57,179 nt of DNA, taken from contig JAVHLK010000011.1 of the NCBI GenBank assembly GCA_031082285.1, positions 1 to 57,179 of the forward strand, read 5' to 3'. Numbering within the stretch: the stretch's first letter is position 1; each line of letters begins with the position of its first letter. The notes under the pieces were generated by a model. It worked only from the letters and a program-made list of their open reading frames with translations, made no database searches and was not told the DNA's origin. The DNA comes from Desulfomonilaceae bacterium. GTDB taxonomy: Bacteria > Desulfobacterota > Desulfomonilia > Desulfomonilales > Desulfomonilaceae. Of this stretch, positions 2,551 through 31,076 are shown piece after piece. The translations under genes were made by a program, and so were the position numbers.

Positions 2551-3587
2551 CATCTTCCCCGGACCCCGGTTTACTGACTTTTGCATCGAACTTGATGGAA
2601 TCCCACGGCGCCCTTCTCGAACAAGAGGATAAGCGCATACTCTCTTTGTTGCCGCCCGAACTCGCTCGATTTCTCAACGCCCCCGAGGAGATTCTCCTGG
2701 GGGGAGAGAATTATCCTCTCCTTTACGGCAGCCCGTTCCTTGACAGTCTGATCCGTCTCGCCACTCATGACGTGCCGGTTCTCTATGCCCGGCTGAATAT
2801 CCCCTACCTGAAGAAAGACGGCTTCGACAGACTCGTTTCCGAAGATGTCCAGCTCTTTGGAGCGCGGATCAAGTCTGTTGCCCAGGCTGAGGCCAACGCT
2901 TGCTATATGGTGGTGATATGTCACTACCGGGCGTTGAGCGATGAACGCAAAGAAGGACTGGTGCAGGTCCCGGTTAGCGAAAGCACGGGGTCCGTTATCG
3001 AGGGACTCGAGGAGCTTTGGAAAGAATTCCCATTTGAGGCGTTTCCCGATAGCCGGGTGCCGCCACAGTTTGATCTGATGCCGGAGCAAGCTTTGACCCG
3101 TGCAATTGATCAAGCCCGCGGGGTGACGCAAGAAGAGCTTTCCACGTTCTTTTCCGGTATGCGCCGGCGGCTTTACCGCGATGTCAGGAATACGAGGGAA
3201 TACTACCAGGCGCTGGCCGTGGAAATGGAGCAAAGCCTGTCGCATCACAACCTGACCGAAGCACAGCGGGAAGACCGGCGAGCCAAGATAGCGGAACTCC
3301 CCAAAGAAATGAACGCCAAGATAGGAGACCTCGAGCGCAAGTACTCTTTGAAGGTCACCATCACCGGCCGTGCTGCGTTGCGGCTCCTTGTTCCCGTGGT
3401 CCGGCTCATGGTGCAGATCAACTGCCGAAAGATAAGTACGACGGTCAGCCTGACCTGGAACCCCGTAACCCGCCGGCTGGACCCCATTCGATGCGATCGT
3501 TGCGGGGGCGGCTCGCTGAGGATTTACGCAGACGGAAGAGATACCACAGTACGGTTATTGTGCCCGATGTGTAACGGAAGTAATTGA
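2547..3587 (+). CDS. Zinc-ribbon protein of unknown function, helicase partner
   Basis: I do not recognise this 346-residue protein. Its C-terminus carries two CxxC pairs (Cys316/Cys319 and Cys339/Cys342) separated by about 20 residues, a zinc-ribbon layout that often binds nucleic acid or protein. The rest is soluble, with a helical, charged middle segment (about 185-275) that may be coiled-coil. There is no signal peptide or membrane segment. The ATG overlaps the helicase stop and is preceded by GGAG in the helicase reading frame, so co-translation is likely. The tight coupling suggests the two products act together, with this one perhaps as the targeting or substrate-binding subunit; that is inference from context only. 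Confidence 0.85.
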   Translation: MTSSPDPGLLTFASNLMESHGALLEQEDKRILSLLPPELARFLNAPEEILLGGENYPLLYGSPFLDSLIRLATHDVPVLYARLNIPYLKKDGFDRLVSEDVQLFGARIKSVAQAEANACYMVVICHYRALSDERKEGLVQVPVSESTGSVIEGLEELWKEFPFEAFPDSRVPPQFDLMPEQALTRAIDQARGVTQEELSTFFSGMRRRLYRDVRNTREYYQALAVEMEQSLSHHNLTEAQREDRRAKIAELPKEMNAKIGDLERKYSLKVTITGRAALRLLVPVVRLMVQINCRKISTTVSLTWNPVTRRLDPIRCDRCGGGSLRIYADGRDTTVRLLCPMCNGSN

Positions 3588-3900
3588 AAGGATGAATGTC
3601 GTCAGTGCCGTGAGGCCTGAAGGCGCGTCCTCATCCGCCGCTCGGGCTTAGTGCTCTATGGCCTTCGCCGGGGGGACGGCGGGCAGTGATGCCGGCTCCA
3701 CAAGATGACGGGCAGGGGCGCCCGTCCCACGATGGCGGCAGGCCTTTCGGTAATTTTCCGTAGCCCCGGGCCTCCGTGCCGGTATTCGTCCGGGGTGCCG
3801 CCATCTTCGCTCATCAGGGACGCCGGGACGCGACCGCGCGCCCCGAAAAATTCGTAACCGCGTTTATGAAATCGATCTCCAAGTGGCAAGCACGCACCCA
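3588..3900. other. Convergent intergenic region with two hairpins
   Basis: No credible gene lies in these 313 bases between two convergent genes. Two structures are visible. One is a 7-bp hairpin at 3707-3726 (GACGGGC/GCCCGTC). The other is a nested stem whose outer arms are GATGGCGGCA (3731-3740) and TGCCGCCATC (3796-3805), with an inner CCCCGG/CCGGGG pairing. Neither is followed by a T-run in either direction. They may stop or protect both transcripts, or form a small structured RNA. Confidence 0.5.
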
Positions 3901-6066
3901 TCAAACCTTCTCGGCAAGTCCGGTGTACCGCGGCTCGACGATTCTATTCTCAACCGCCATCTTGATGGCTCTCGGACTACCTATGACAATGACGAGTCGT
4001 TTCCCGCGGGTCATGGCCGTATAGAGCAGGTTGCGACGCAAGAGCACATAATGCTGAGTAGTCACGGGGATTATCACTGCGGGATACTCGCTGCCCTGTG
4101 ACTTGTGAACGGATACCGCGTACGCGAGGGACACTTCATCCATTTCGGAAACATGATATGTGACCGGCCGCCCGTCGAATTCCACGATCGCCTCGGACCA
4201 TTCGGAATCGTATGACACGATCCTGCCCACATCCCCGTTGAACACTTCCTTATCGTAGTTGTTTCTCGTCTGCATGACCCGGTCGCCCACTCGGAACCGG
4301 TCTCCCCTTATCGGGACCCCGGAGGGGTTGAGCATTTCTCGAAGCTCCCGATTGAGGTTCTCGGTTCCGAGGGTTCCCTTGTGCATGGGGCTCAAGACCT
4401 GAACATCATCCGTGGGACTGAGTCCGAAACGATCCGGTATTCTCCGCCCTACCATTTCTTTGAGGAGTCGAAGCGCTTCGTCAGGATCCTCCCGTTCAAT
4501 GAGATAGAAATCGGAAAGGCCCTCCCCAGGCTCCAAGTTCACGGGCATGTGGCCCTCGTTCACCAGGTGGGCGTTGGTCACGATGAGGCTGGACCGGGCC
4601 TGGCGGAAGACGGTTTCCAATCTCACCGTGTGGATCTTGCCCGAAGCGATGAGGTCGCCAAGGACGTTTCCCGGCCCCACGGACGGCAGTTGGTCCGCAT
4701 CTCCAACGAGAAGCAGCGTTGCCTGCACAGGCACCGCGCAGAGCAGGTAGTGCATGAGCGAGACGTCCACCATCGACGCCTCGTCGACCACGATCACGTC
4801 CACCTCAAGAGGTCTCGCAGCATTTCGCTGAAACCCCCCTTCGCCGGGCGAATATTCGAGAAGCCTGTGCAGCGTCTTCGCCTCACGGCCCGTAGCCTCG
4901 GCGAGCCTTTTGGCGGCACGGCCGGTGGGAGCGGCCAGGGCCACGCGAATTTTCTTTGCCTCAAGGATGCATATGAGCGACTTCAAGAGCGTGGTCTTAC
5001 CCGTACCCGGACCACCGGTAATGATCAACACCTTGTGTTCCAACGCATCCGCAACGGCTTGCTTCTGAGCCTGAGAGAGCTCGATCCCGGTCCGGCCTTC
5101 GACCCAGGATATGGCGGCATCCACCTTGATGGGGGGGAGCAGGCGTGGAGACGTGACGAGATTCCCAATCCGTTCCGCGACGGAGTTCTCTCTCCGGGCC
5201 ATGAGCGCCGGATACACACGGTCCCGGCTCTCAAGCGTGAGGTGTCCCGATGCGGCTAGATCCGCCACTGCATTTTCGAGAATGCGCACGTCAATGCCCA
5301 AGAGATTTCGGCTCCTGTCCAGCACTTTGACGAGCGGAAAATACACGTGGCCTTCAGACTGTATTTCGTCCAAAACGTGCAAAATGCCGGCTCGGGCTCG
5401 CAAGGGAGAGCGCATGTCCACGCCGAGACTTCCGGCAATGCGATCCGCGGACCGGAACCCGATCCCCGGAATGTCCGCGGCAAGACAGTAGGGATTTCGG
5501 GAAACCACATCGACCGATGCCTGGCCGTATTTCTTGAATATTTTGAACGCGTACGTCGGTGATACGCCGTGGGTCTGGAGAAAGAGCATCACTTCTCTGA
5601 TGTTCTTCTGCTCTCGAAACGCCTCGGATATCTTCTCCGCGCGGACTCGACCGATCCCCGGTACCTTGAGGAGCGCTTGGGGGTCCTCCTCAATCACGTC
5701 GAGGGTACGCGCTCCGAACATGGCGGTAATTCTGCTCGCCATTTCCGGACCGATGCCCTTGATCAGACTGGACGACAGGTACTTCTCGATACCCTGAACC
5801 GTGGATGGGGCGGTCGAGTGAGCCTCTTGAAACCGAAACTGCTCCCCGAACTTCTTGTCGACCTCCCAATTCCCCTTGAGGACAAGGTTCTCACCCGGGT
5901 GGGGTTGCGGCAGCTTCCCCACAATCGTTACGGTTTCCCTGCGACCCCGTACCGCGAGTTTGGCCACTACGAAATCGCCCGAATCTCCGGTAAAGACGAG
6001 GCGATCCAGAATCCCTTCAAGGGTTACGAGACGATCGGATGTCTTATGATCGTTTGAGGTCCCCAT
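3901..6066 (-). CDS. recD2: RecD2-family ATP-dependent 5'-3' DNA helicase
   Basis: RecD2 is an SF1B helicase that works without RecBC and is linked to replication-fork maintenance and repair. From the ATG at 6066 the protein is 721 residues, the usual RecD2 length; upstream in-frame sequence is low-complexity and unlike the family, so I reject longer starts. The N-terminal half has an OB-like segment and three helix-hairpin-helix style turns (KGIGPEMA, VPGIGRVRA, IPGIGFRSA). The C-terminal half has Walker A GGPGTGKT (351-358), Walker B VVDEAS (about 426-431), motif III GDADQLPSVGPGNVL, the late motif VHKSQGSEYP and YTAMTRGK. It is monocistronic here and convergent with the SNF2 operon. Complete and apparently functional. 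Confidence 0.96.
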   Translation of the reverse strand: MGTSNDHKTSDRLVTLEGILDRLVFTGDSGDFVVAKLAVRGRRETVTIVGKLPQPHPGENLVLKGNWEVDKKFGEQFRFQEAHSTAPSTVQGIEKYLSSSLIKGIGPEMASRITAMFGARTLDVIEEDPQALLKVPGIGRVRAEKISEAFREQKNIREVMLFLQTHGVSPTYAFKIFKKYGQASVDVVSRNPYCLAADIPGIGFRSADRIAGSLGVDMRSPLRARAGILHVLDEIQSEGHVYFPLVKVLDRSRNLLGIDVRILENAVADLAASGHLTLESRDRVYPALMARRENSVAERIGNLVTSPRLLPPIKVDAAISWVEGRTGIELSQAQKQAVADALEHKVLIITGGPGTGKTTLLKSLICILEAKKIRVALAAPTGRAAKRLAEATGREAKTLHRLLEYSPGEGGFQRNAARPLEVDVIVVDEASMVDVSLMHYLLCAVPVQATLLLVGDADQLPSVGPGNVLGDLIASGKIHTVRLETVFRQARSSLIVTNAHLVNEGHMPVNLEPGEGLSDFYLIEREDPDEALRLLKEMVGRRIPDRFGLSPTDDVQVLSPMHKGTLGTENLNRELREMLNPSGVPIRGDRFRVGDRVMQTRNNYDKEVFNGDVGRIVSYDSEWSEAIVEFDGRPVTYHVSEMDEVSLAYAVSVHKSQGSEYPAVIIPVTTQHYVLLRRNLLYTAMTRGKRLVIVIGSPRAIKMAVENRIVEPRYTGLAEKV

Positions 6067-12008: not shown

Positions 12009-12220
12009 TCCGCAATGCCGTGACGGCACCCGATCTCTTTCGCTGGAGGCTTCGCAAAGACCGGTTCGGCGGTTCACATCCAAATTTCCGCGACTGCCGG
12101 CCTCAACGAACTGCCGAGATCAGCTCATAGTGTGATCCTCATGTATGATAGACTATTCGCCGGCGACCGGGGGTTGGGATACCACCGAACGAACGAGTGC
12201 GCCGAGAAGGTGATCTGCAC

Positions 12221-13423
12221 ATGAACTACCTCGGAGGAGGACTGGCGGTATGGTTCCTCCTGACCGTGATCCCGCTCGTTACGGTCCTTGTGGTGGGATT
12301 GACGAGAATCCGAGCGGCACGACGGCATCGCGTGACTGACGAGGGACCGGTTCCCGTTTCTCAGGTGGAAATCCTTGTTCCGCTCAAGGGACGGATGCCC
12401 GAACAAGAGAAGATCCTCACGTCCCTGCTGGAACAGCGATATCCTCGCTATGACGTAGTCTTTGTCTTGGAGAGCGAAGACGATCCGGGCAACGTCATGG
12501 TGGATGAACTGTGCAGCCGCTATTCGCATGCACGCAAGGTGATAAGCGGAGTCGCGGACGTGTGTGCACAGAAAAATCACGGTCTGGTTGCGGGAGTCGG
12601 GAACCTGAGGCCGGAAACCGAGATCCTTGTGTTCTGTGATAGTACCAACGCAGCAGCCCCGGACTGGCTCGAGTATTTTACCGCGCCGTTGCGGTCCGGC
12701 GAGGCGCAGGCCGTTTCCACCTTCCGAGCCTTCGACCCCCGGCCCGAGACTTTGGCGGGAGTTTGTCAAGCGATTTACGCTTCATTCATCCTCGTCCTCT
12801 TGATGATCAAACCAAAACCCTGGGGAGGAGCCACGGGTATCCGCCGAGCAGTGTTCGAAGCCTTGAATGTGGCGGAGGCGTGGTCCCGCACGGTCGTAGA
12901 CGACCTGGTGTTGGGTAACATTCTCGACCGCGCTCGAATCGACGTTCACATGAGACCTCGACATCTGTTGCGATCGCCGCTGCGCAACCAGACCGTTGAA
13001 GGCTTTCTGTCGTACCTGGACAGACAGATTTTGTTTCCCAAGTTTACGAATCCGGGAATCTGGTTCGTGACGCTCACCGTTATCCTGAGTTTGACGCTGG
13101 CATCGTACCTCTCACTCGCGGTAACCATTCTGTTTCTCTTCGGATATGGGGAACCGTACGGTGCGTGGATCTGCCTGGGCTTTCTGGCCGTTCTCGGATC
13201 GGCCCTCTTGGTCCTGCGACGCGTGAGTCCGTTCCCCGTGTCGGTTGCCAAGTGGGTCTCGGCCTTCTTTCCCCTTCTGGCGCTGGCATCGTTTGTGTAC
13301 CTGAGATCAATCGTGGTCAACCACATCGACTGGCACGGCAGGAGATACCGTCCCGGGAAAGGCGGCGTCGTGCTTTGCACCACCTATCCCTCTTCAGGAA
13401 ACGACCTCCGTGAACTCTCTTAG
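12221..13423 (+). CDS. Membrane glycosyltransferase, GT2/GT21 (ceramide glucosyltransferase-like)
   Basis: A 400-residue processive-type or glycolipid glycosyltransferase. It has one N-terminal membrane helix (8-28), a cytosolic GT-A domain and about three C-terminal helices (from about 280 to 380). The domain motifs match the GT21 pattern: VFVLESEDDPGN, the Asp-containing VFCDSTNAAAPDWL, and VVDDLVLGNIL. The usual (Q/R)xxRW acceptor motif is replaced by SYLDRQILFPK, so it is degenerate. ATG 12221 is chosen because GAGAAGGTGA lies 7 bases upstream; a GTG eight codons earlier is possible. It follows the TolC/HlyD pair after a 212-base gap without a gene. It might glycosylate a lipid or build a glycan exported by that pair; this is inferred. 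Confidence 0.8.
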   Translation: MNYLGGGLAVWFLLTVIPLVTVLVVGLTRIRAARRHRVTDEGPVPVSQVEILVPLKGRMPEQEKILTSLLEQRYPRYDVVFVLESEDDPGNVMVDELCSRYSHARKVISGVADVCAQKNHGLVAGVGNLRPETEILVFCDSTNAAAPDWLEYFTAPLRSGEAQAVSTFRAFDPRPETLAGVCQAIYASFILVLLMIKPKPWGGATGIRRAVFEALNVAEAWSRTVVDDLVLGNILDRARIDVHMRPRHLLRSPLRNQTVEGFLSYLDRQILFPKFTNPGIWFVTLTVILSLTLASYLSLAVTILFLFGYGEPYGAWICLGFLAVLGSALLVLRRVSPFPVSVAKWVSAFFPLLALASFVYLRSIVVNHIDWHGRRYRPGKGGVVLCTTYPSSGNDLRELS

Positions 13424-13498: not shown

Positions 13499-14137
13499 AT
13501 GATACACGGAATAATCCTGGCCGCCGGACTTTCAACGAGGATGGGAGTTCCCAAGCTGTTGATGCCTCTCGACGGGTCGCCCATACTTTCGCACGTCCTT
13601 CAAGCCGCACTCGATTCGTCCCTGGACCGGGTGATCCTTGTAGCCGGTCCCGGACTCATGTCGTCGTCTTACCTCAGAGGGCTCCCCCGGGTCTCCGCTC
13701 GACTTCGGGTGGTCACCAATCCCCGCCCCCAAGAGGGCATGTCGTCTTCACTCCGGGTGGGGATGGCCGCAATGGATCCCAATTCACAGGGGGTCATGGT
13801 GATTCTGGCCGATCAACCCCGGTTGACACACACCCTGATCGACGAACTCAAGGCGGTTTTTTTGAGAGACCCGAGCAAGATCGTTGCTCCCGCAATCCAC
13901 GGCCGGAGGACCACGCCGGTGATTTTCCCCGCGAGTCTTTTTGATGAGTTAACGGCTCAACGCGGCGATGTTGGAGGACGAGACGTCGTGACCCAAAACC
14001 TCCACAAGGTTGTCGAAATTGAAATGGGGTCGTATTATGATGATGCCGATATCGATACGCCGGAGGATCTGCGACGCGTGGAGAACGGGATTTCGGACCG
14101 GCGACGGACCGGCCGGCCCGTGGGAGACGAGATCTGA
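13499..14137 (+). CDS. MobA/MocA-like nucleotidyltransferase
   Basis: A 212-residue NTP transferase of the MobA-like family. The opening GIILAAGLSTRMGVPKLLMPL is the nucleotide-binding signature, with GxxxRMG and the catalytic Lys. NPRPQEGMSSSLRVGM and VMVILADQPRL (with Asp for the metal) complete the core, and DADIDTPEDL near residues 181-190 is the usual end motif. MocA makes molybdopterin cytosine dinucleotide; relatives activate sugars or polyols, for example in the MEP pathway. The closest look is MocA. No molybdenum enzyme is nearby, while glycosyltransferase and IspH genes flank it, so an envelope or isoprenoid role is also possible. Confidence 0.8.
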   Translation: MIHGIILAAGLSTRMGVPKLLMPLDGSPILSHVLQAALDSSLDRVILVAGPGLMSSSYLRGLPRVSARLRVVTNPRPQEGMSSSLRVGMAAMDPNSQGVMVILADQPRLTHTLIDELKAVFLRDPSKIVAPAIHGRRTTPVIFPASLFDELTAQRGDVGGRDVVTQNLHKVVEIEMGSYYDDADIDTPEDLRRVENGISDRRRTGRPVGDEI

Positions 14138-14407: not shown

Positions 14408-16156
14408 ATGAAAATTCGTTTGGCAAACACCGCGGGCTTCTGCATGGGCGTGCGCAGGGCCGTAGACATGGTACTCGACCTGCAACGGGCTGCGCCGCCG
14501 GTTCCCATAGTGACGTACGGCCCACTCATTCACAATCCGCAGACTCTGGATCTCCTCGCGTCTCGGGGCATCCGCCAGGTGAGTTCCCTTGAAGCGATCG
14601 ACCGCGGCACGGTCGTCATACGCGCTCACGGGATTTCACCACAAGAACGTCAAATACTCAAGGATAAGGGCGTCAAGATAATCGATGCCACGTGTCCCCG
14701 TGTGGCGCGAGTTCAGGCGGTCATACGAAAGCACGCGGCACGAGGACATTTCTGCGTAATCGTGGGTGATGCGGATCATCCGGAAGTACGTGGTCTATTA
14801 GGCTTCGCGTCCGCCGGCGGTCTCGCCTTATCCGGTGCCGACGATCCGGACATGCCGACCCTGGTGCCTCGCAACGGCGGGATCTGCGTCGTTGCGCAAA
14901 CCACGCAAGAGGTCAAGACGTTCGATGCCGTGGTCCGCGTTCTTCGAGAGCAGTGCTCGGACGTTCAAGTATACAATACCATTTGCGATTCCACCAAGAA
15001 ACGACAAAGCGAAGTCGCCAGGCTGGCTCGACAAGTGGATATGATCGTCGTGGTTGGAGGAAAGGGGTCCGGTAACACGCGCAGGCTGGTGCAAGTTGCC
15101 GAGGCGCAACACATCCCGTCACTTCATGTGGAAACTGAAGCTGAGATGGAATCGGAGGACCTCGCCGGGGCCGAAGTGATCGGCGTGACGGCCGGTGCAA
15201 GCACGCCGAATTGGCAGATCAGACGCGTCATCGACAGGCTCAAGGAAATCGGGATGAGTCGACAGTCCGGCTTTCCGAAGAGACTGAGGAGATTGGCCGA
15301 CATCACCGTGATGACATACGGCTGGGCGGCTCTAGGCGGAGGCGGCTTGAGCGCGACCTGCCAGGTCTTGCAGGGGCGTCCGGTAAGTTGGCTGCCGGTG
15401 GCGGTCACCATGCTGTTTGTGTTCTCCATGCATTTACTGAACAGGCTCCAGGAGAGGTCGGGAGCCGTGAGGTTCAATACGCCGGACATCGCCGAGTTCT
15501 ACGCGCGGCACCGTAACCTGCTCGGTACTTTGGCACTGGTGTCGTCCGTGGCCGCGGTGGTGCTGAGCTACCAGGTAAGCATCTACGCCTGTGTCCTGCT
15601 GTTTGCCATGGTCGTAGCGGGGAGGCTCTACACCGAACCCATCCTTTCGGCAAGCACGTTGCCCAAGATTCGATGGCGCAGCCTGAAGGATCTCCCCGGG
15701 TCCAAGACTCCTTTGGTGGCGGCCGGTTGGGCCGTGTCCGCGACGGTGGTTCCCGTCCTGGGGTCGGTTTCCGACATCCACGTGCCCGCACTCGTCGTGT
15801 CCTTCCTGTTTGCCGCAGGAATGGTCTTCTGGAGGACCGCCATGTCGGATCTTCTGGACATTCAGGGGGATCGGATCGTGGGACGGGAGACGATTCCCAT
15901 ATTGATCGGCGTGAAGAGAACCCGCCGGATGCTGCTGGGATTACTTGGCGCCCTGGCCGTTCTGCTGATCGGATCGGCCGCGGGGGGGCTGATTCCTCCC
16001 ATCGGCTATTGGCTGATCACGAGCGTGCTGGTATTCGGAGCTTTTCTCATGCTGTTCAGACGACGACACCTGGTGGACAGGCTTTGGTTTGAGGGAGTGA
16101 TAGACGGAAATTTTGTACTTGCAGGACTTGTCTCCATGGCGTATGGAATATCATGA
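14408..16156 (+). CDS. ispH: IspH fused to a UbiA-like prenyltransferase membrane domain
   Basis: The first 285 residues are HMBPP reductase, the last MEP-pathway enzyme, which reduces HMBPP to IPP and DMAPP with a [4Fe-4S] cluster. The cluster cysteines are Cys12, Cys96 and Cys193, and the substrate-binding motifs LIHNPQ (His41), IRAHG (His74), DHPEV (His124, Glu126), TTQE and TAGAST are all present. Residues 290-582 are a second, membrane-embedded domain with about seven to eight helices. Its segment SDLLDIQGDRIVGRETIP matches the second Asp-rich motif of the UbiA superfamily, but the first motif (NDxxDxxxD) is replaced by MHLLNRLQE. The reading frame is continuous, so this is a true fusion. 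A single-domain IspH is about 280-320 residues. The fusion would hold the enzyme at the membrane and could pass prenyl diphosphate directly to a transferase. The reductase call is secure; activity of the second domain is uncertain. Confidence 0.93.
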   Translation: MKIRLANTAGFCMGVRRAVDMVLDLQRAAPPVPIVTYGPLIHNPQTLDLLASRGIRQVSSLEAIDRGTVVIRAHGISPQERQILKDKGVKIIDATCPRVARVQAVIRKHAARGHFCVIVGDADHPEVRGLLGFASAGGLALSGADDPDMPTLVPRNGGICVVAQTTQEVKTFDAVVRVLREQCSDVQVYNTICDSTKKRQSEVARLARQVDMIVVVGGKGSGNTRRLVQVAEAQHIPSLHVETEAEMESEDLAGAEVIGVTAGASTPNWQIRRVIDRLKEIGMSRQSGFPKRLRRLADITVMTYGWAALGGGGLSATCQVLQGRPVSWLPVAVTMLFVFSMHLLNRLQERSGAVRFNTPDIAEFYARHRNLLGTLALVSSVAAVVLSYQVSIYACVLLFAMVVAGRLYTEPILSASTLPKIRWRSLKDLPGSKTPLVAAGWAVSATVVPVLGSVSDIHVPALVVSFLFAAGMVFWRTAMSDLLDIQGDRIVGRETIPILIGVKRTRRMLLGLLGALAVLLIGSAAGGLIPPIGYWLITSVLVFGAFLMLFRRRHLVDRLWFEGVIDGNFVLAGLVSMAYGIS

Positions 16157-16231: not shown

Positions 16232-16307
16232 GCTGGCGTAGCTCAACCGGTAGAGCAGCTGATTTGTAATCAGCAGGTTGCGGGTTCGAGTCCCATCGCC
16301 AGCTCCA
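16232..16307 (+). tRNA. tRNA-Thr(TGT)
   Basis: The acceptor stem GCTGGCG pairs with CGCCAGC. The anticodon loop TTTGTAA carries TGT at 16265-16267, and the T-loop TTCGAGT and an encoded CCA are present. First of four tRNAs upstream of tuf. Confidence 0.96.
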
Positions 16308-16311
16308 GGAT

Positions 16312-16396
16312 GGAGGGGTTCCCGAGTGGCCAAAGGGGGCAGACTGTAAATCTGTTGGCTCAGCCTTCGGAGGTTCAAATCCTCCCCCCTCCACCA
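16312..16396 (+). tRNA. tRNA-Tyr(GTA)
   Basis: Acceptor GGAGGGG pairs with CCCCTCC, followed by A and an encoded CCA. The anticodon loop contains GTA at 16346-16348, and the long variable arm (class II) fits tRNA-Tyr. It lies 4 bases after the first Thr tRNA. Confidence 0.95.
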
Positions 16397-16438
16397 CATC
16401 CGAAAGGCCGCCTTCAGACCGGCTCACTTAAGTCGGTA

Positions 16439-16516
<78 letters not shown>

Positions 16517-16609
16517 AAATTTGCGCACCGCGGCCGTCGGCTACCAGGCCGACGGTCGCAGCTCTGATAGAAGGGTCGCATCCCTCAAGGAAAGTCGCTT
16601 CGTGTCAGG

Positions 16610-16686
16610 GCCCACGTAGCTCAGTAGGTAGAGCACTTCCTTGGTAAGGAAGAGGTTCACCGGTTCGATCCCGGTCGTGGGCTCCA
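16610..16686 (+). tRNA. tRNA-Thr(GGT)
   Basis: Acceptor GCCCACG pairs with CGTGGGC. The anticodon loop TTGGTAA carries GGT at 16643-16645, and CCA is encoded. Last tRNA before tuf, reproducing the Thr-Tyr-Gly-Thr-tuf order known from Escherichia coli. Confidence 0.96.
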
Positions 16687-16789
16687 AATGGCCTTACCCG
16701 AGGCGGGCTTTCGTTCCGAGGGGCGCTGTTGGAAAGATGTGGTCGAGACAGACCCCTCATAGACTATTCTGCCGGTGACTTTGTTGTAA

Positions 16790-17993
16790 GGAGGAGCCCA
16801 TGGGCAAGGCGAAGTTTGAACGTACAAAGCCTCACGTGAACGTTGGAACCATAGGTCACATCGATCACGGCAAGACTACCTTGACGGCGGCGATAACCAG
16901 GACATTGGCGAAGAAGGGCATGGCGGAGTATGTGCCGTTCGAGGAGATCGACAAGGCTCCGGAGGAGAAGGAGCGGGGCATCACGATAGCCACGGCGCAC
17001 GTGGAGTATCAGACGGATAAGCGTCACTATGCCCACGTTGATTGTCCGGGCCATGCGGACTACATCAAGAACATGATCACCGGTGCGGCTCAGATGGACG
17101 GGGCCATTCTGGTGGTGGGAGCGAACGACGGTCCGATGCCTCAGACGCGTGAGCATATTCTGTTGGCGCGTCAGGTCGGGGTGCCGTATATAGTGGTATT
17201 TTTGAACAAGACGGACATGGTTGACGACCCGGAACTTATCGAGTTGGTGGAGTTGGAGTTGCGGGAGTTGTTGAGTTCGTATGATTTTCCCGGTGACGAC
17301 ATCCCGATCGTACGAGGGAGTGCGTTGAAGGCGTTGGAATCCGGGGATCCTGCGAGTCCTGATACTGCGTGCATATTGGAGTTGATGGACGCGGTGGATT
17401 CGTATGTACCGGTTCCCGAGCGCGACATAGACAAGCCGTTTTTGATGCCGGTGGAGGACGTATTCAGCATATCGGGTCGTGGGACGGTGGTGACCGGTCG
17501 CGTGGAGCGTGGTCAGGTCAAGGTGGGCGAAGAAGTGGAGATCGTGGGCATTCGGGACACGCGCAAGACGGTGTGCACCGGAGTTGAGATGTTCCGCAAG
17601 GTTCTCGATTCGGGTCAGGCGGGAGACAACGTGGGTCTTTTGCTTCGGGGCATAAAGCGTGAAGAGGTGGAGCGCGGTCAGGTGGTTGCGGCTCCCGGGA
17701 GCATCACTCCTCATACGAAGTTCAAGGCCGAGACGTACATCCTGGCGAAGGAGGAAGGCGGTCGTCACACGCCGTTTTTCAACGGGTATCGACCGCAGTT
17801 TTACTTCCGTACGACTGACGTGACCGGTGTGATCACGCTTCCGGAGGGGATCGAGATGGTGATGCCCGGGGACAACGTGTCGCTGGAGGGTCATCTGATC
17901 ACGCCGATTGCGATGGAAAAGGAGCTGCGCTTTGCGATCCGTGAAGGCGGCAGAACGGTCGGCGCCGGAGTCGTTTCCGAAATTATCGAATAG
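16790..17993 (+). repeat. Long direct repeat: tuf copy 1
   Basis: This 1204-base block, from the ribosome-binding site GGAGGAGCCC through the tuf stop, recurs at 34757-35960. I see one difference: A at 17969 against C at 35936, silent in a Gly codon. Identity ends abruptly on both sides. Such homogeneity is typical of ongoing gene conversion between tuf copies. Confidence 0.95.
16800..17993 (+). CDS. tuf: Elongation factor Tu, copy 1
   Basis: EF-Tu delivers aminoacyl-tRNA to the ribosome with GTP. The 397-residue protein has all G motifs: [10 protein letters not shown] (P-loop), the switch I region [33 protein letters not shown], and the SALKALE segment, followed by domains II and III. The ribosome-binding site AAGGAGGA is strong. 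It lies downstream of four tRNAs and upstream of rpmG. Codon use is odd: by eye about half the Leu codons are TTG, and GTG and CGT are frequent, unlike neighbouring genes that favour CTG and CTC. The protein is identical to the second copy. Confidence 0.99.
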
Positions 17994-18065
17994 TTGAGAG
18001 CCGGTACGGCGACGCCCACCTGTTGCGGGTACGGCGACGGTCCGTATCGGAACCCGAGGCATCCT

Positions 18066-18215
18066 ATGAGAGACATCATCACCCTCGCCTGCACCGAGTG
18101 CAAGCGGAGGAACTATACGACGACGAAGAACAAGAAGAATACTCCGGACAAGCTGCAGTTCAAGAAGTACTGTCGGTTCTGTCGAACCCACACCCTTCAT
18201 CGGGAGACTAAATGA
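18066..18215 (+). CDS. rpmG: Large ribosomal subunit protein L33
   Basis: A 49-residue L33 of the zinc-binding type. The pairs CTEC (near residue 9) and CRFC (near residue 36) are both intact, and the core [16 protein letters not shown] is typical. L33 sits near the ribosomal E site. ATG 18066 is chosen because the sequence starts with the family's [12 protein letters not shown]. It lies 72 bases after tuf and before tRNA-Trp, the usual position. Confidence 0.96.
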
Positions 18216-18239
18216 AGTGGGACGTTCGATGATCGCAGC

Positions 18240-18315
18240 AGGCCAGTAGCTCAACGGCTAGAGCACCGGTCTCCAAAACCGGGGGTTGGGGGTTCGAAAC
18301 CCTCCTGGCCTGCCA
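18240..18315 (+). tRNA. tRNA-Trp(CCA)
   Basis: Acceptor AGGCCAG pairs with CTGGCCT, followed by G and an encoded CCA. The anticodon loop CTCCAAA carries CCA at 18273-18275. Located between rpmG and secE as in many bacteria. Confidence 0.97.
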
Positions 18316-24700: not shown

Positions 24701-25948
24701 AAAGACCGTGACGACGAGATGCGTATTGTGGAAGAAGGAGCCCGAGAAAGGATCCGAGGCATGCTCGTCGGCAAGACCGTGGCTTCCAATCTCTCCAATC
24801 CGGTTACGGGGAAACTGTATGTCAAGAAAGGGGAAGCCGTCTCCAACGAAGTCATGCAGTCTGTTCCCCTGGAATTGCTCAGAGAGCTTTCGTTGAAAGG
24901 GGACCCCACCACAGAAGACGAGGTCGTGAGAATACTGGAGCGCCTCGGCGACCAGAAGCATTTCTGGAAAATGCACTACGACGAGCGCATCAGTCGCCTC
25001 AAGAAGGGAGACGAACTTCCTCCTGGAGTCATCAAGCTTGTCAAAACGTACATCGCCATCAAACGGAAGCTCTCCGTGGGCGACAAGATGGCCGGCCGCC
25101 ACGGAAACAAAGGCGTGTTGTCGAGGATTCTGCCTGAAGAGGACATGCCGTACTTTGATGACGGCACACCCGTTGAAATCGTGCTTAACCCCCTCGGCGT
25201 ACCCTCGAGAATGAACGTGGGCCAGATCCTTGAGACCCACCTTGGGTGGGCCGCCCGGGGACTCGGCGAAGCCCTCGACCGGATGATCGAGGAGCATTTT
25301 TCCAGCGAAAAGCTCCGGGAAAGGCTGTTGAGCATTTTCGACTCGTATGAACCGGACAGGAAGAAGACGGTCCAAGCCTTGATTCGGGACATGGATGAGG
25401 ACCTGCTGAAAAGATTTGTGCAGTCCCTCTCAGAAGGTGTTCCCATAGCCACCCCCGTCTTTGACGGAGCTCGTGAGTCCGAGATCAAGTCAATGTTGGA
25501 AACGGCGGGCCTCCCGGCCAACGGCCAGACGCGCCTGTACGACGGAAGGACCGGCGTTCCCTTTGACACAAGCGTTACCGTGGGCGTCATCTACATGATG
25601 AAGCTTCATCACCTGGTTGACGACAAGATCCACGCTCGTGCGATCGGCCCATACTCGCTGGTCACTCAACAGCCGTTGGGAGGTAAAGCCCAGTTCGGCG
25701 GTCAGAGATTGGGTGAGATGGAAGTCTGGGCCATGGAGTCCTACGGCGCCGCGTACTCTCTGCAAGAGTTCCTTACCGTCAAGTCCGACGACGTCACGGG
25801 CCGTACAAGGATGTATGAGAGCATTGTGAAAGGCACCAACGTTCTTGAGCCCGGTCTGCCGGAATCGTTCAATGTCCTGGTAAAGGAGATCAAATCGCTC
25901 GGCCTGGACGTGGAACTCCTGGAAGGTGAGCCCGTGGTGGCTCGCTAG
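21713..25948 (+). CDS. rpoB: RNA polymerase beta subunit
   Basis: The 1411-residue catalytic beta subunit. Recognisable blocks are the rifampicin pocket ([22 protein letters not shown], near residues 545-566), [30 protein letters not shown], the active-site [15 protein letters not shown] with catalytic lysines, and the C-terminal [24 protein letters not shown]. The rifampicin-pocket Asp, His and Ser appear in their sensitive form. Slightly longer than the 1342 residues of Escherichia coli. GAGGGAGAAA precedes the ATG. rpoC follows after a 181-base gap. Confidence 0.99.
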
Positions 25949-26063
25949 CCGTCGAAAAGCACGCCCCGATCGCGGCACGGACGCGCCGAACGGAGAAGCG
26001 CGAACAAGGCCCCGGGACGGCAACCAGGCGTTGCACTGCCGACACCATAGTAAAGACAAAGGC

Positions 26064-26088
26064 CCGGCCCGGGTCGAATCCGGGCCGG
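26064..26088 (+). other. rpoB-rpoC intercistronic hairpin
   Basis: A perfect 9-bp GC-rich stem (CCGGCCCGG 26064-26072 with CCGGGCCGG 26080-26088) with a 7-base loop. No T-run follows. It sits 41 bases before the rpoC start and may stabilise or process the mRNA, or modulate rpoC translation. Confidence 0.5.
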
Positions 26089-26129
26089 ATCATCCCTCGC
26101 AGCCCCAACCCCATTCAAGGAGGGAAGCT

Positions 26130-29100
26130 TTGGAAGACATCTATTACAGTTTTTTCGAGAAGCCCAAAGATCCAGTAAATTTCAATGCAGTCAAAATTTC
26201 ACTGGCATCGCCGGAAAAAATCCGTTCCTGGTCTCACGGTGAGGTGAAGAAACCGGAGACGATCAATTATCGAACCTTCAAGCCGGAACGGGACGGTTTG
26301 TTCTGCGCCAAGATATTCGGTCCGGTAAAAGACTACGAATGCAATTGCGGAAAATATAAGCGCATGAAGCATCGAGGCACCATATGCGAAAAATGCGGTG
26401 TCGAGGTGATTCAGTCCAAGGTGCGCCGTGAACGCATGGGGCATATTGAACTCGCTACTCCGGTGGCTCACATATGGTTCCTCAAGAGTCTTCCCAGCAG
26501 AATCGGCACCCTACTGGACCTTACGCTCAAGGAAGTGGAACGAGTGCTCTACTTCGAGTCGTTCCTGGTCGTGAATGCAGGGACGACGAATCTCGAAGTG
26601 GGGACGTTGGTGAATGAGGAAATGTACCGCAAGACCTTGGAGGAATACGGTCCGGAGTCATTCGAGGCCTACATGGGGGGTGAAGCCGTACGTGACATGC
26701 TCGAGTCTCTCGACCTGGTTTCGGAAAGCATCAAACTTCGTGAAGAGATGAAGGTCTCCGCGTCCGAAGCAAAGCGCAAGAAGCTGGCCAAGCGTCTCAG
26801 GGTTTTGGAATCTCTCAAGGGCATCGACCCGGAAACCCTTGTCGCGGAAGTGCAGCAAATCTACGAGAGCAGCGATCCGGAAAGTGAAATGGGTACGTTT
26901 CTCGCCGAGATTCTGCAGTCTGCCCGCGAGATTCAAGTCAAGTGGGAAGACACCCAGGATTGGGAAGTGAGAAAGCAGCTCGCGTTTGTCGAAATCAACA
27001 ACATCACCGACAGACTCACCCGCTCTCGCCTTATTCCACCGGAAAGTCTGGGCAAATTTAGGCAATGGCAGAATCCCGCGTGGATGATTCTCACCACCAT
27101 CCCCGTGATTCCGCCTGATCTGCGACCTCTCGTGCCGCTCGATGGAGGGCGTTTCGCAACCTCCGACCTGAACGATCTGTATCGCCGCGTCATTAACCGC
27201 AACAATCGCCTCAAGAGGCTCAAGGAACTCAACGCGCCGGAAATCATCCTTCGCAACGAGAAGCGAATGCTCCAGGAAGCGGTAGACGTGCTGTTCGACA
27301 ACGGACGACGCGGTCGTGTCATAACCGGTCCCAATAAGAGGCCGTTGAAATCGTTGTCCGATATGCTCAAGGGAAAACAGGGACGATTCCGTCAGAACTT
27401 GCTGGGCAAGCGCGTCGATTATTCGGGAAGATCGGTGATCGTAGTCGGCCCCGATTTGAGGCTTCACCAGTGCGGACTTCCCAAACGAATGGCTTTGGAA
27501 CTATTTAAACCATTCATCTACAACAAACTGGAGGAAAGGGGTTACATCACCACCATCAAGAGCGCCAAGAAACTTGTGGAGAAGGAAACTCCGGAGGTCT
27601 GGGACATACTCGAAGAAGTCGTCAAAGAGTATCCGGTCCTGCTGAACCGGGCGCCCACGCTCCACAGGTTGGGCATACAAGCCTTCGAGCCCGTACTCAT
27701 CGAAGGTAAGGCCATCCAACTGCATCCTCTAGTCTGTACCGCGTTCAACGCGGACTTCGACGGCGACCAGATGGCGGTGCACATCCCCCTCTCCGTGGAA
27801 GCACAAGTGGAGGCGCGAGTGTTGATGATGAGCACCAACAACATCCTCTCGCCTGCACACGGGAAACCGATTATTGTCCCCACCCAGGATATCGTGCTGG
27901 GTCTGTACTACCTGACCCGCGAATCCGCGGACCCGGAACTGGACAAGGCTCCCAGGATCTTTACCGAATCCTCGGAAGTTCGAGTGGCCTATGATGCGGG
28001 AGTCGTCGACCTGCACGAGAAGATTCTACTGCGCGAAGACGGTGAGAAACTCCCCACTACCGTGGGCCGCGTTCTGCTGCGCGAGATCGTACCCAAGGAG
28101 ATCGCGTTCACCTTCGTCAACAAGGTCATGAAGAAGAAAGAACTGGCCAACCTCATTGACGAGGCGTACCGGAGGTGCGGCGACAAGGAGACGGTCATCC
28201 TCGCGGACAGGCTCAAGGACCTCGGTTACTACTACGCGACCAAGGCCGGTCTGTCGATCTGTGTCGATGACATGCACATCCCCGAGTCGAAGAAGGAAAT
28301 CATAGAAAAGGCTCGATCCGAGGTGCTCGAGATTCAGAATCAGTACAAGGAAGGTCTCATCACCGACGGCGAACGCTACAACAAGGTGATCGACATATGG
28401 GCCAGGGCAAACGAGGATATTTCGGAACGCATGATGAGCGGCCTGAGAACCATGACCATTACCCTGGCGGACGGGACCGAGAAGAAGGCCGAGAGCTTCA
28501 ACCCCATCTATATGATGGCGGATTCCGGCGCGAGGGGAAGCACCCAGCAGATACGTCAGTTGGCGGGAATGCGGGGCCTGATGGCAAAACCCACCGGGGA
28601 AATCATTGAAACTCCCATCGAGGCCAATTTCCGTGAAGGTCTGACCGTGCTGCAGTACTTCATATCCACACACGGCGCGCGAAAAGGTCTCGCGGATACC
28701 GCGCTCAAGACCGCCAACTCCGGATACCTGACGCGACGACTCGTGGACGTGGCCCAGGACGCGATTATTCATGAAAAGGACTGCGGCACCCTTGACGGCA
28801 TCGAGATGGCCTCCCTGGAAGAAGGCGGCGAAATCATCGAGCACGTGGCGGATCGAATCCTCGGACGAGTTGCCCTGGAAGATATAGAGCATCCGTTCAC
28901 CGGTGAGATTATCGTCAAGGCCAATGAGGAAATCGAAGAGGAGCACAGAGACCGTATTCAAGATTCCGGCATCGACCGGGTCAAGATCCGGTCGGTGCTG
29001 ACCTGCCAGTCGCGAAGAGGCGTCTGCGGTCTGTGCTACGGACGGGATCTGGCTCACGGCAGAATGGTGAACATAGGAGAGGCGGTGGGAATCATCGCGG

Positions 29101-31076
29101 CCCAGTCCATCGGAGAACCGGGAACTCAGCTCACGATGCGCACGTTCCATATCGGAGGGACCGCGTCACTCAAACGAAATATCATCTCCGCGCGCAAGAA
29201 GGGTAAGGTATCCTTTGAAAAGGAAAAGGACCGAACAAAAGCAATCATCGTCGCGCAGGATTTCGAGGTGGACGAATCGGAAGTGACCACATGGCTGGTC
29301 GAAGACGGCCAGACGCTGAGGGAGAACTCGTTCCTGTTCGAGGGCCCCGACCATCAACTCGATGAGAGCGAGAAGATTGGGGGCAAGATGGAGATATCCT
29401 TGGACAGGAAGTCCTACAGCCTGCAGGATGAAGACGGCAACAGACGGAAATTCAAGATTCCCGACGGATACCGGTTCACGGTGAGACACGGCGATCGAGT
29501 CTCGCCTCACACCTTTATCTACGAAATTGCCAAAGGTCACGGGCGCATGTTGGAAGCCGAACGACGAGGAGGCATCTTCCAACTCGGCAAGAAAAAAGGA
29601 GGCAAGATCACTTTCCGACTCTACGAGCGGTATCCCGTCATGGACTATATGAACGTAAAAGTCCAGGAAGGCGACGTGATCGAGTCGGAAGGACAGGTCC
29701 TCTTGGAATGGTTGGGATCCAGTTCATCGCAGCTGTTCTCGCGCAATGAAGGCCGCATACGATTCATCGAACTCAAGACCGTCACAAACAGGGACGGTGA
29801 AGAGATCGTGATGAATCGAAACGGTTCCATAGCGATCACCGATGAGAAAGGCCGCGAGCGCGAACGAAACAAGCTCATCTACGGTGCCAAACTGCGGGTC
29901 AGCAACTCTGAAGCAGTCAACCGGGAGACGCTCCTGGCCGAATGGGATCCCTATACGATCCCTATCATCACGGAAGTCTCGGGAAAAGTGAAGTTCGGCG
30001 ACGTCATCGAAGGCCTCACCATGAACGAACAGGTCGACGAGGTGACGGGTCTGTCGAGAAAGGTCATCGTCGAATACAGAGACAAGGACGCAGAGATTCG
30101 ACCGCGTGTTTCCATAAAAGACCCTCACGGCAGGACCATCAAGCTCAAGGATTCGGAAGCCCGGTATCTGCTCCCCGTGGGTTCGAACATCATGGCCAAA
30201 GAAGGCGAGGAAGTGCATGCAGGCGCCGTTATCGCCAAGATTCCTCGTGAAACGACCAAGACAAAGGATATCACCGGAGGACTTCCGAGGGTGGCGGAGC
30301 TCTTCGAGGCCCGCAAACCGAAGGAGTTCGCCATCATCTCCGAGATCGACGGTCTCGTGAGTTTCGGCAAGGACACCAAAGGCAAACGCAAGGTCGTCGT
30401 GACTCCCGAAGTCGGGGACCCTAAAGAGTATCTCATCCCGAAAGGCAAGCACATCACCGTGCACTCCGGAGACTGGGTGCAGGCGGGAGAGGCTTTGATG
30501 GAGGGTTCCACCAACCCACACGATCTCCTCGGCATCAAGGGTGAGAAGGATCTGGCCAAGTACCTGGTGGACGAAGTGCAGGAGGTCTATCGGTTACAGG
30601 GTGTGAAGATCAACGACAAACACATTGAAGTCATCGTCAGACAGATGCTTCGCCGGGTACGCGTCAAAGAAGTCGGGGACACCGACTTCCTTGTGGGCGA
30701 ACAGATCGAGCGATCGGTCTTCGAAGACGTCAACAACCGGGTCATGCAGGCCGGGGGGGCCCCGGCGGTCGGCGAGCCCCTGCTTCTGGGCATCACCAAG
30801 GCATCTCTGTCGACCGATTCGTTCATCAGCGCGGCAAGCTTCCAGGAGACGACCAAGGTGCTGACGGAAGCTTCCATTTCGGGCAAGATCGACTACCTGC
30901 GCGGCCTGAAAGAGAACGTGATTATGGGCAGGCTGATCCCTGCGGGAACGGGACTGAGCCGTTACAAGGACCTGAAACTTAAGCACGGCGACATGCCCGA
31001 ACAGGATGCGCGTGAGGTTCGGCGCAGCCGGCGCGAGGCGCGAGCCGATGCCGACAGCATACCCGCGAGCGCGTAG
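26130..31076 (+). CDS. rpoC: RNA polymerase beta-prime subunit with enlarged trigger-loop insertion
   Basis: The beta-prime subunit, 1648 residues from TTG 26130, which has AAGGAGGGAAGC directly upstream and begins [11 protein letters not shown], the normal start. Visible parts: zinc-binding CNCGKYKR and CEKCGVEV, the catalytic NADFDGD (bases 27747-27767), the bridge helix and trigger helix around [19 protein letters not shown], and the second zinc site [11 protein letters not shown]. Between HIGG (residue 1007) and TKDITGG (residue 1378) lie 371 residues; Escherichia coli has about 200 there, so the insertion (SI3) is roughly 170 residues longer. This explains the length well above the 1407 residues of Escherichia coli. 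Confidence 0.98.

Follow-up and report, generated by a model that had tools for sequence, protein, structure and literature searches.

A UbiA-derived membrane domain fused to the HMBPP reductase IspH in Desulfobacterota and other bacteria: a possible membrane tether whose prenyltransferase site has been eroded in several lineages

The window analyzed here, i.e. the whole stretch of 57,179 nucleotides of Desulfomonilaceae DNA, carries a gene in which an IspH (HMBPP reductase) domain is joined to a membrane domain of the UbiA type (Table 1). The first-pass annotation had described the two as parts of one uninterrupted frame, and ORF translation of the region 14408-16156 indeed gave 582 residues with no internal stop. 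The same uninterrupted frame (64-69% identity) is present in Desulfomonile assemblies, and a distinct full-length fusion frame was found in at least 95 other genomes among the 297 Desulfobacterota genomes drawn. The possibility that a sequencing error removed a stop codon between two genes, or that a misassembly merged them, is ruled out by the conservation of the frame in these independent Desulfomonile assemblies and in the at least 95 other genomes; no observation was found in favour of such an artefact, and we give it virtually no credence. The structure predicted for the whole 582-residue protein (AlphaFold2, 79 aligned sequences) had a pLDDT of 94.1 and a pTM of 0.90. One relative of the fusion (G022 in locus L112, minus strand, approx. 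3345-5139 on the reversed sequence) is interrupted by two stop codons close to where the membrane domain begins; this broken frame may represent a sequencing error, a pseudogene or split genes.

Table 1. Features of the IspH-UbiA fusion gene and its upstream neighbours (positions in the window)
Feature	Position	Strand	Basis
IspH-UbiA fusion gene	14408..16156	+	single frame, 582 aa, uninterrupted in relatives
IspH (HMBPP reductase) domain, residues 1-281	14408..15250	+	PF02401, TIGR00216, fold
UbiA-fold membrane domain, residues 289-582	15272..16153	+	PF01040 above gathering score; Z 19.7 to 4tq4
Degenerate first Asp motif, H342..N345..E349..A353..N357 T P359	15431..15490	+	paralogue alignment, 114-domain counts
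Tyr408, equivalent of AfUbiA Tyr139	15629..15631	+	113/114 domains; HMMER alignment to 4tq3
KDLPGSKT...W segment (residues 427-441), a signature of the family; Lys427 is aligned to AfUbiA Lys146	15686..15730	+	
Second Asp motif region, R476..D481..D484..D488..G492..T495	15833..15898	+	alignments
MobA-like NTP transferase gene, upstream neighbour, outside the fusion	13499..14137	+	PF12804 E 4.6e-37
GT2 glycosyltransferase, upstream	12197-13423		

Downstream of the fusion gene there are four tRNA genes followed by the gene for EF-Tu. Within 16232-18315 these tRNAs are Thr, Tyr, Gly and Thr, with tRNA-Trp after EF-Tu and RpoB, RpoC and EF-G encoded further downstream, an arrangement that is common in bacteria. 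The RpoC frame (25926-31076) is long (1716 aa), and its domain 1 match spans 408 residues vs. the 312 positions of the model, suggesting lineage-specific insertions.

The nucleotidyltransferase and glycosyltransferase genes next to the fusion had initially been taken to suggest a link with polyprenyl or glycolipid synthesis. Comparison with other fusion loci, whose neighbouring genes were named by sequence resemblance, lends little support to this idea. The MobA-like gene adjoins the fusion in nine loci, all of them within the window's own family, whereas elsewhere the neighbours are dus (directly upstream, 11 loci), another glycosyltransferase (GT2 directly downstream, nine loci) or dxs and ispA, the order ispA-dxs-ispH-UbiA being found in several families and in lineage f2. 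Outside the window's family, no sign was seen that the fusion is functionally linked to the glycosyltransferase or the MobA-like gene. To judge from these gene assignments, the ispA and dxs neighbours connect the fusion, in some lineages, with isoprenoid synthesis.

As a rule IspH is a soluble iron-sulfur enzyme, and cells that make isoprenoids by the MEP pathway alone cannot do without it. The N-terminal half of the fusion protein matches the LYTB/IspH family PF02401 (residues 3-279, E 3.1e-87, 292.7 bits vs. a cut-off of 24.5) and TIGR00216 (IspH; 276.4 bits vs. a cut-off of 187.85), and residues 1-283 of the model correspond to E. coli IspH (3szu) with a Z score of 33.1 (VIA-align). The original description of this half as a complete HMBPP reductase, with cluster cysteines 12, 96 and 193, was borne out: all three are present and are invariant in the 79-sequence fusion alignment, as are H42, H74, H124, E126, T165, T166, S221, N223 and S265. 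A search of the 5.6 Mb genome identified the fusion as its sole IspH, with no second, stand-alone copy found. By family match, the gene product is therefore predicted to be the only HMBPP reductase of the cell, and it bears a UbiA-derived C-terminal membrane domain.

The assignment of the C-terminal domain to UbiA was strengthened by both of the checks that had been proposed for it, namely a Pfam search and a comparison with UbiA structures. The domain matches PF01040 at residues 374-554 (E 9.4e-12; 45.2 bits, above the gathering score of 34.2), and all 70 C-terminal domains from which we built a profile of the fused domain (A2) match PF01040 at E 0.01 or better. In the model, this part of the protein has a predicted fold corresponding to those of AfUbiA (4tq4; Z 19.7 over 264 residues, 3.8 A; VIA-align) and ApUbiA (4od5; Z 19.0; VIA-align), and it gave Z 15.2 against the HMGCR-UBIAD1 complex (8djk). 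The fused domain shares with AfUbiA and ApUbiA (4tq4, 4od5) the predicted fold over approx. 260 residues as well as counterparts of Tyr139, of Lys146 and of the second Asp motif, but its identity to them is 12-13% and it differs in its altered first motif and its fusion to IspH. The closest PDB sequence match of the domain profile was the archaeal digeranylgeranylglyceryl phosphate synthase 6m31 (E 4.2e-7), which has a similar second motif, RxxxxDxxDxxGD, but is a stand-alone lipid synthase with a known reaction and lacks an IspH part.

Besides the fusion, the genome encodes five other UbiA proteins: an MqnP-like one (L045), whose gene adjoins a UbiD-like gene, and four more, including CyoE-like and MenA-like proteins (names by resemblance). 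Given this set, the fused domain is unlikely to be a missing quinone prenyltransferase.

In AfUbiA, the Mg2+ ligands are N68, D72, D198 and D202, R22 and K146 are also required for GPP binding, and no residue of the family is more conserved than Y139 (PMC4106721). An alignment of the fused domain with AfUbiA and the genome's own UbiA paralogues equates N68, D72, D198, D202, K146 and Y139 with N345, E349, D484, D488, K427 and Y408, respectively; no confidently placed counterpart of R22 was found in the fusion domain alignment. Both statements made earlier about the Asp motifs stand. Residues 480-497 (SDLLDIQGDRIVGRETIP) align with the second UbiA Asp motif, and the window has DxxxD at this site (D484-IQG-D488). 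The first motif is degenerate: N345 is present, Glu349 replaces Asp, Ala353 replaces the last Asp, and the pattern NDxxDxxxD is absent.

The residue counts for the family rest on a single MAFFT alignment of 114 non-eroded domains, in which Y408 and W441 were each found in 113, D488 in 112, R476 in 111, K433 in 105 (plus nine with Arg), H342 in 101 and N345 in 96, Gly492 being near-invariant. Position 349, occupied by Glu in the window and by Asp in most other members, carried one of these two acidic residues in 79. One domain out of 114 has the canonical first motif NxxxDxxxD in full, and two have a first-site DXXXD, which the window lacks; the second DxxxD is present in 74, with Asp at 484 in 75. 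N345 occurs together with D/E349 in 64 domains, and 37, i.e. about a third, have the complete set of four Mg ligands (NDDD or NEDD); the window, with N345/E349/D484/D488, is one of these. On this alignment, a putative polar pocket is kept by most of the domain family, but the full set of predicted Mg ligands by only these 37 members. Because the near-invariance of Tyr408, Trp441, Lys433, Arg476, Asp488 and Gly492 exceeds the needs of a mere anchor, most non-eroded members probably still bind or convert some ligand.

Thirteen fusions in four lineages (f2, f30, f38 and f82) have lost much of the active site and kept the fusion, the erosion being most complete in f2 and f30 and partial in f38 and f82. 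On the IspH tree, which was obtained by a quick method and has many open forks, well-supported branches force four separate changes to the eroded state. The f2 domain has lost motif 1 and the Tyr, Lys, Arg and Trp residues, and retains an Asp and a Gly of motif 2; it matches the A2 profile with E values of 2e-7 to 4e-12. A UbiA fold is also predicted for it (pLDDT 92.4, pTM 0.86; Z 15.9 to 4od4), with an alignment that included intact relatives and may have biased the model towards their fold. In close f2 pairs, rough Nei-Gojobori estimates of dN/dS were 0.07-0.14 for the C-terminal domain and 0.08-0.12 for the IspH half, and intact C-terminal domains gave 0.09-0.18 by the same rough method. 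The values were looser in f30 (0.17-0.30) and f82 (0.44), with several pairs saturated. The eroded f2 domain is clearly under purifying selection; the low dN/dS means that a function is present, but does not say which.

The fusion, treated as new in the first-pass annotation, had already been published by Rao et al. 2015 (PMC4746011), who reported 47 IspH-UbiA fusion sequences, in which the UbiA part (PT_UbiA_5) was of unknown function; the full-length protein could not be expressed, being mostly truncated in inclusion bodies. The domain order, size and broad bacterial group are like those observed here. There are two differences: (i) two DXXXD sites were described in that study, whereas most domains of our set lack the first one and the site is eroded in four lineages, and (ii) all of the published sequences come from sulfate reducers, whereas the A2 profile detected the same fusion in 17 of 119 Planctomycetota genomes and 10 of 40 Sumerlaeota genomes (search-centre genomes counted; the sets were drawn around loci titled Brocadiia and Sumerlaeota). 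The fusion is thus broader than published.

All A2 matches with E below 1e-40 lie in frames that also encode IspH, full or partial, the partial cases being located at contig edges or frame breaks (e.g. L161 and L132). A search of 24 Desulfobacterota genomes with a stand-alone IspH gave no close free copy of the fused domain, and a tblastn search of a plasmid collection gave no match. The notion that the domain is never free holds only for this close family, since more distant free UbiA relatives exist in the Sumerlaeota (L175, L176) and Planctomycetota (L150-L152) sets. The free UbiA-like proteins of L175 (1945-3016; 27% over 201 aa) and L176 (2956-3895) share with the fused domain the pattern NQPxRAxF and LKxIGxxK...AW, and may possibly form a sister family.

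Stand-alone IspH proteins occur in several lineages of the IspH tree, where at least five label changes are forced. Those nested among fusions are L056, L119 and L125-L130, with L056 branching inside f17 and L119 next to the two eroded f38 sequences. The tree suggests several outright losses of the membrane domain, and the existence of several lineages with IspH alone means that a tether would be dispensable.

The role of the membrane domain can be read in several ways. The protein could be a bifunctional enzyme, in which the C-terminal domain actively transfers IspH-derived DMAPP or a short prenyl diphosphate to an acceptor; this corresponds to the Rosetta-stone model of Rao et al. 2015, who proposed a local supply of IPP/DMAPP (PMC4746011). 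Such an activity would fit the predicted UbiA fold, the retention of Tyr408, Lys427, Asp488 and Arg476, the four ligand positions kept in the window, the ispA-dxs-ispH order around the fusion in some lineages, and the finding that AfUbiA binds DMAPP (PDB 4tq4; PMC4106721). However, the complete set of Mg ligands is confined to 37 of the 114 domains and canonical motif 1 to a single one, four lineages with an eroded site still keep the domain, and five further UbiA proteins are encoded in the genome. Moreover, the customary donors of UbiA enzymes are prenyl diphosphates longer than DMAPP, made by other enzymes after IspH. We regard active transfer as a somewhat unlikely explanation.

Physical coupling of a UbiA-fold protein to an isoprenoid-synthesis reductase is also known from HMGCR-UBIAD1 (8djk), in which UBIAD1, reviewed as a GGPP sensor, controls HMG-CoA reductase (PMC9579336). 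This pair illustrates that a coupling of the kind can serve regulation. By analogy, the fused domain might bind, without converting, prenyl diphosphates or an isoprenoid formed downstream, and so tune IspH activity. HMGCR and UBIAD1 are separate proteins of the mevalonate pathway in animals, and their likeness to the fusion is one of arrangement only, not of membership. The sensor reading is favoured by the retention of pocket residues while the catalytic Mg ligands erode, by the finding of close domain-family members only in attachment to IspH, and by the pTM of 0.90 of the two-domain model, which suggests a fixed interface. Against it, about a third of the members lack Asp/Glu349, the equivalent of which AfUbiA needs for GPP binding, and the eroded domains could hardly sense in this way. 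We consider a sensor of this kind improbable. The fuller proposal of a bacterial counterpart of HMGCR-UBIAD1, with a UbiA-fold isoprenoid sensor and tether built into the last MEP reductase and only the tether left in at least four lineages, would likewise be an unlikely outcome.

The reading that we favour, in which we place roughly even confidence, is that the UbiA-derived domain keeps IspH attached to the cytoplasmic side of the membrane, with a prenyl-diphosphate-type pocket kept in most lineages, including that of the window. The repeated loss of the site with the domain kept, in one case under purifying selection, points to a common role that serves IspH itself, and suggests that the domain acts for the attached IspH, whether alongside catalysis of its own or in its place. 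Most simply, this common role would be membrane attachment, its location and orientation being deduced from UbiA homology. A membrane anchor had been named as an alternative at the outset, and it gains support from the repeated erosion of the motifs in retained fusions and from the dN/dS values of the f2 domain.

If the domain is primarily a tether, (i) its shared, selected role would be to keep IspH on the cytoplasmic membrane face, (ii) IPP and DMAPP would be released beside membrane-bound enzymes that use prenyl groups, (iii) in most lineages, the window included, the old pocket would bind a prenyl diphosphate or a related lipid, tethering perhaps going together with an altered enzymatic or sensory function, and (iv) erosion of the pocket would have left the tether alone in at least four lineages. 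The strong conservation of the putative pocket in most members argues that many may also bind or convert an isoprenoid, and substrate channelling between the two halves, envisaged in the first-pass annotation, is possible.

The intact, eroded and unfused lineages represent natural comparisons for the role of this domain. A link between IspH and a membrane prenyltransferase fold that lasts after the erosion of the active site would imply that these bacteria depend in some way on where IspH is located or on its control by isoprenoids.
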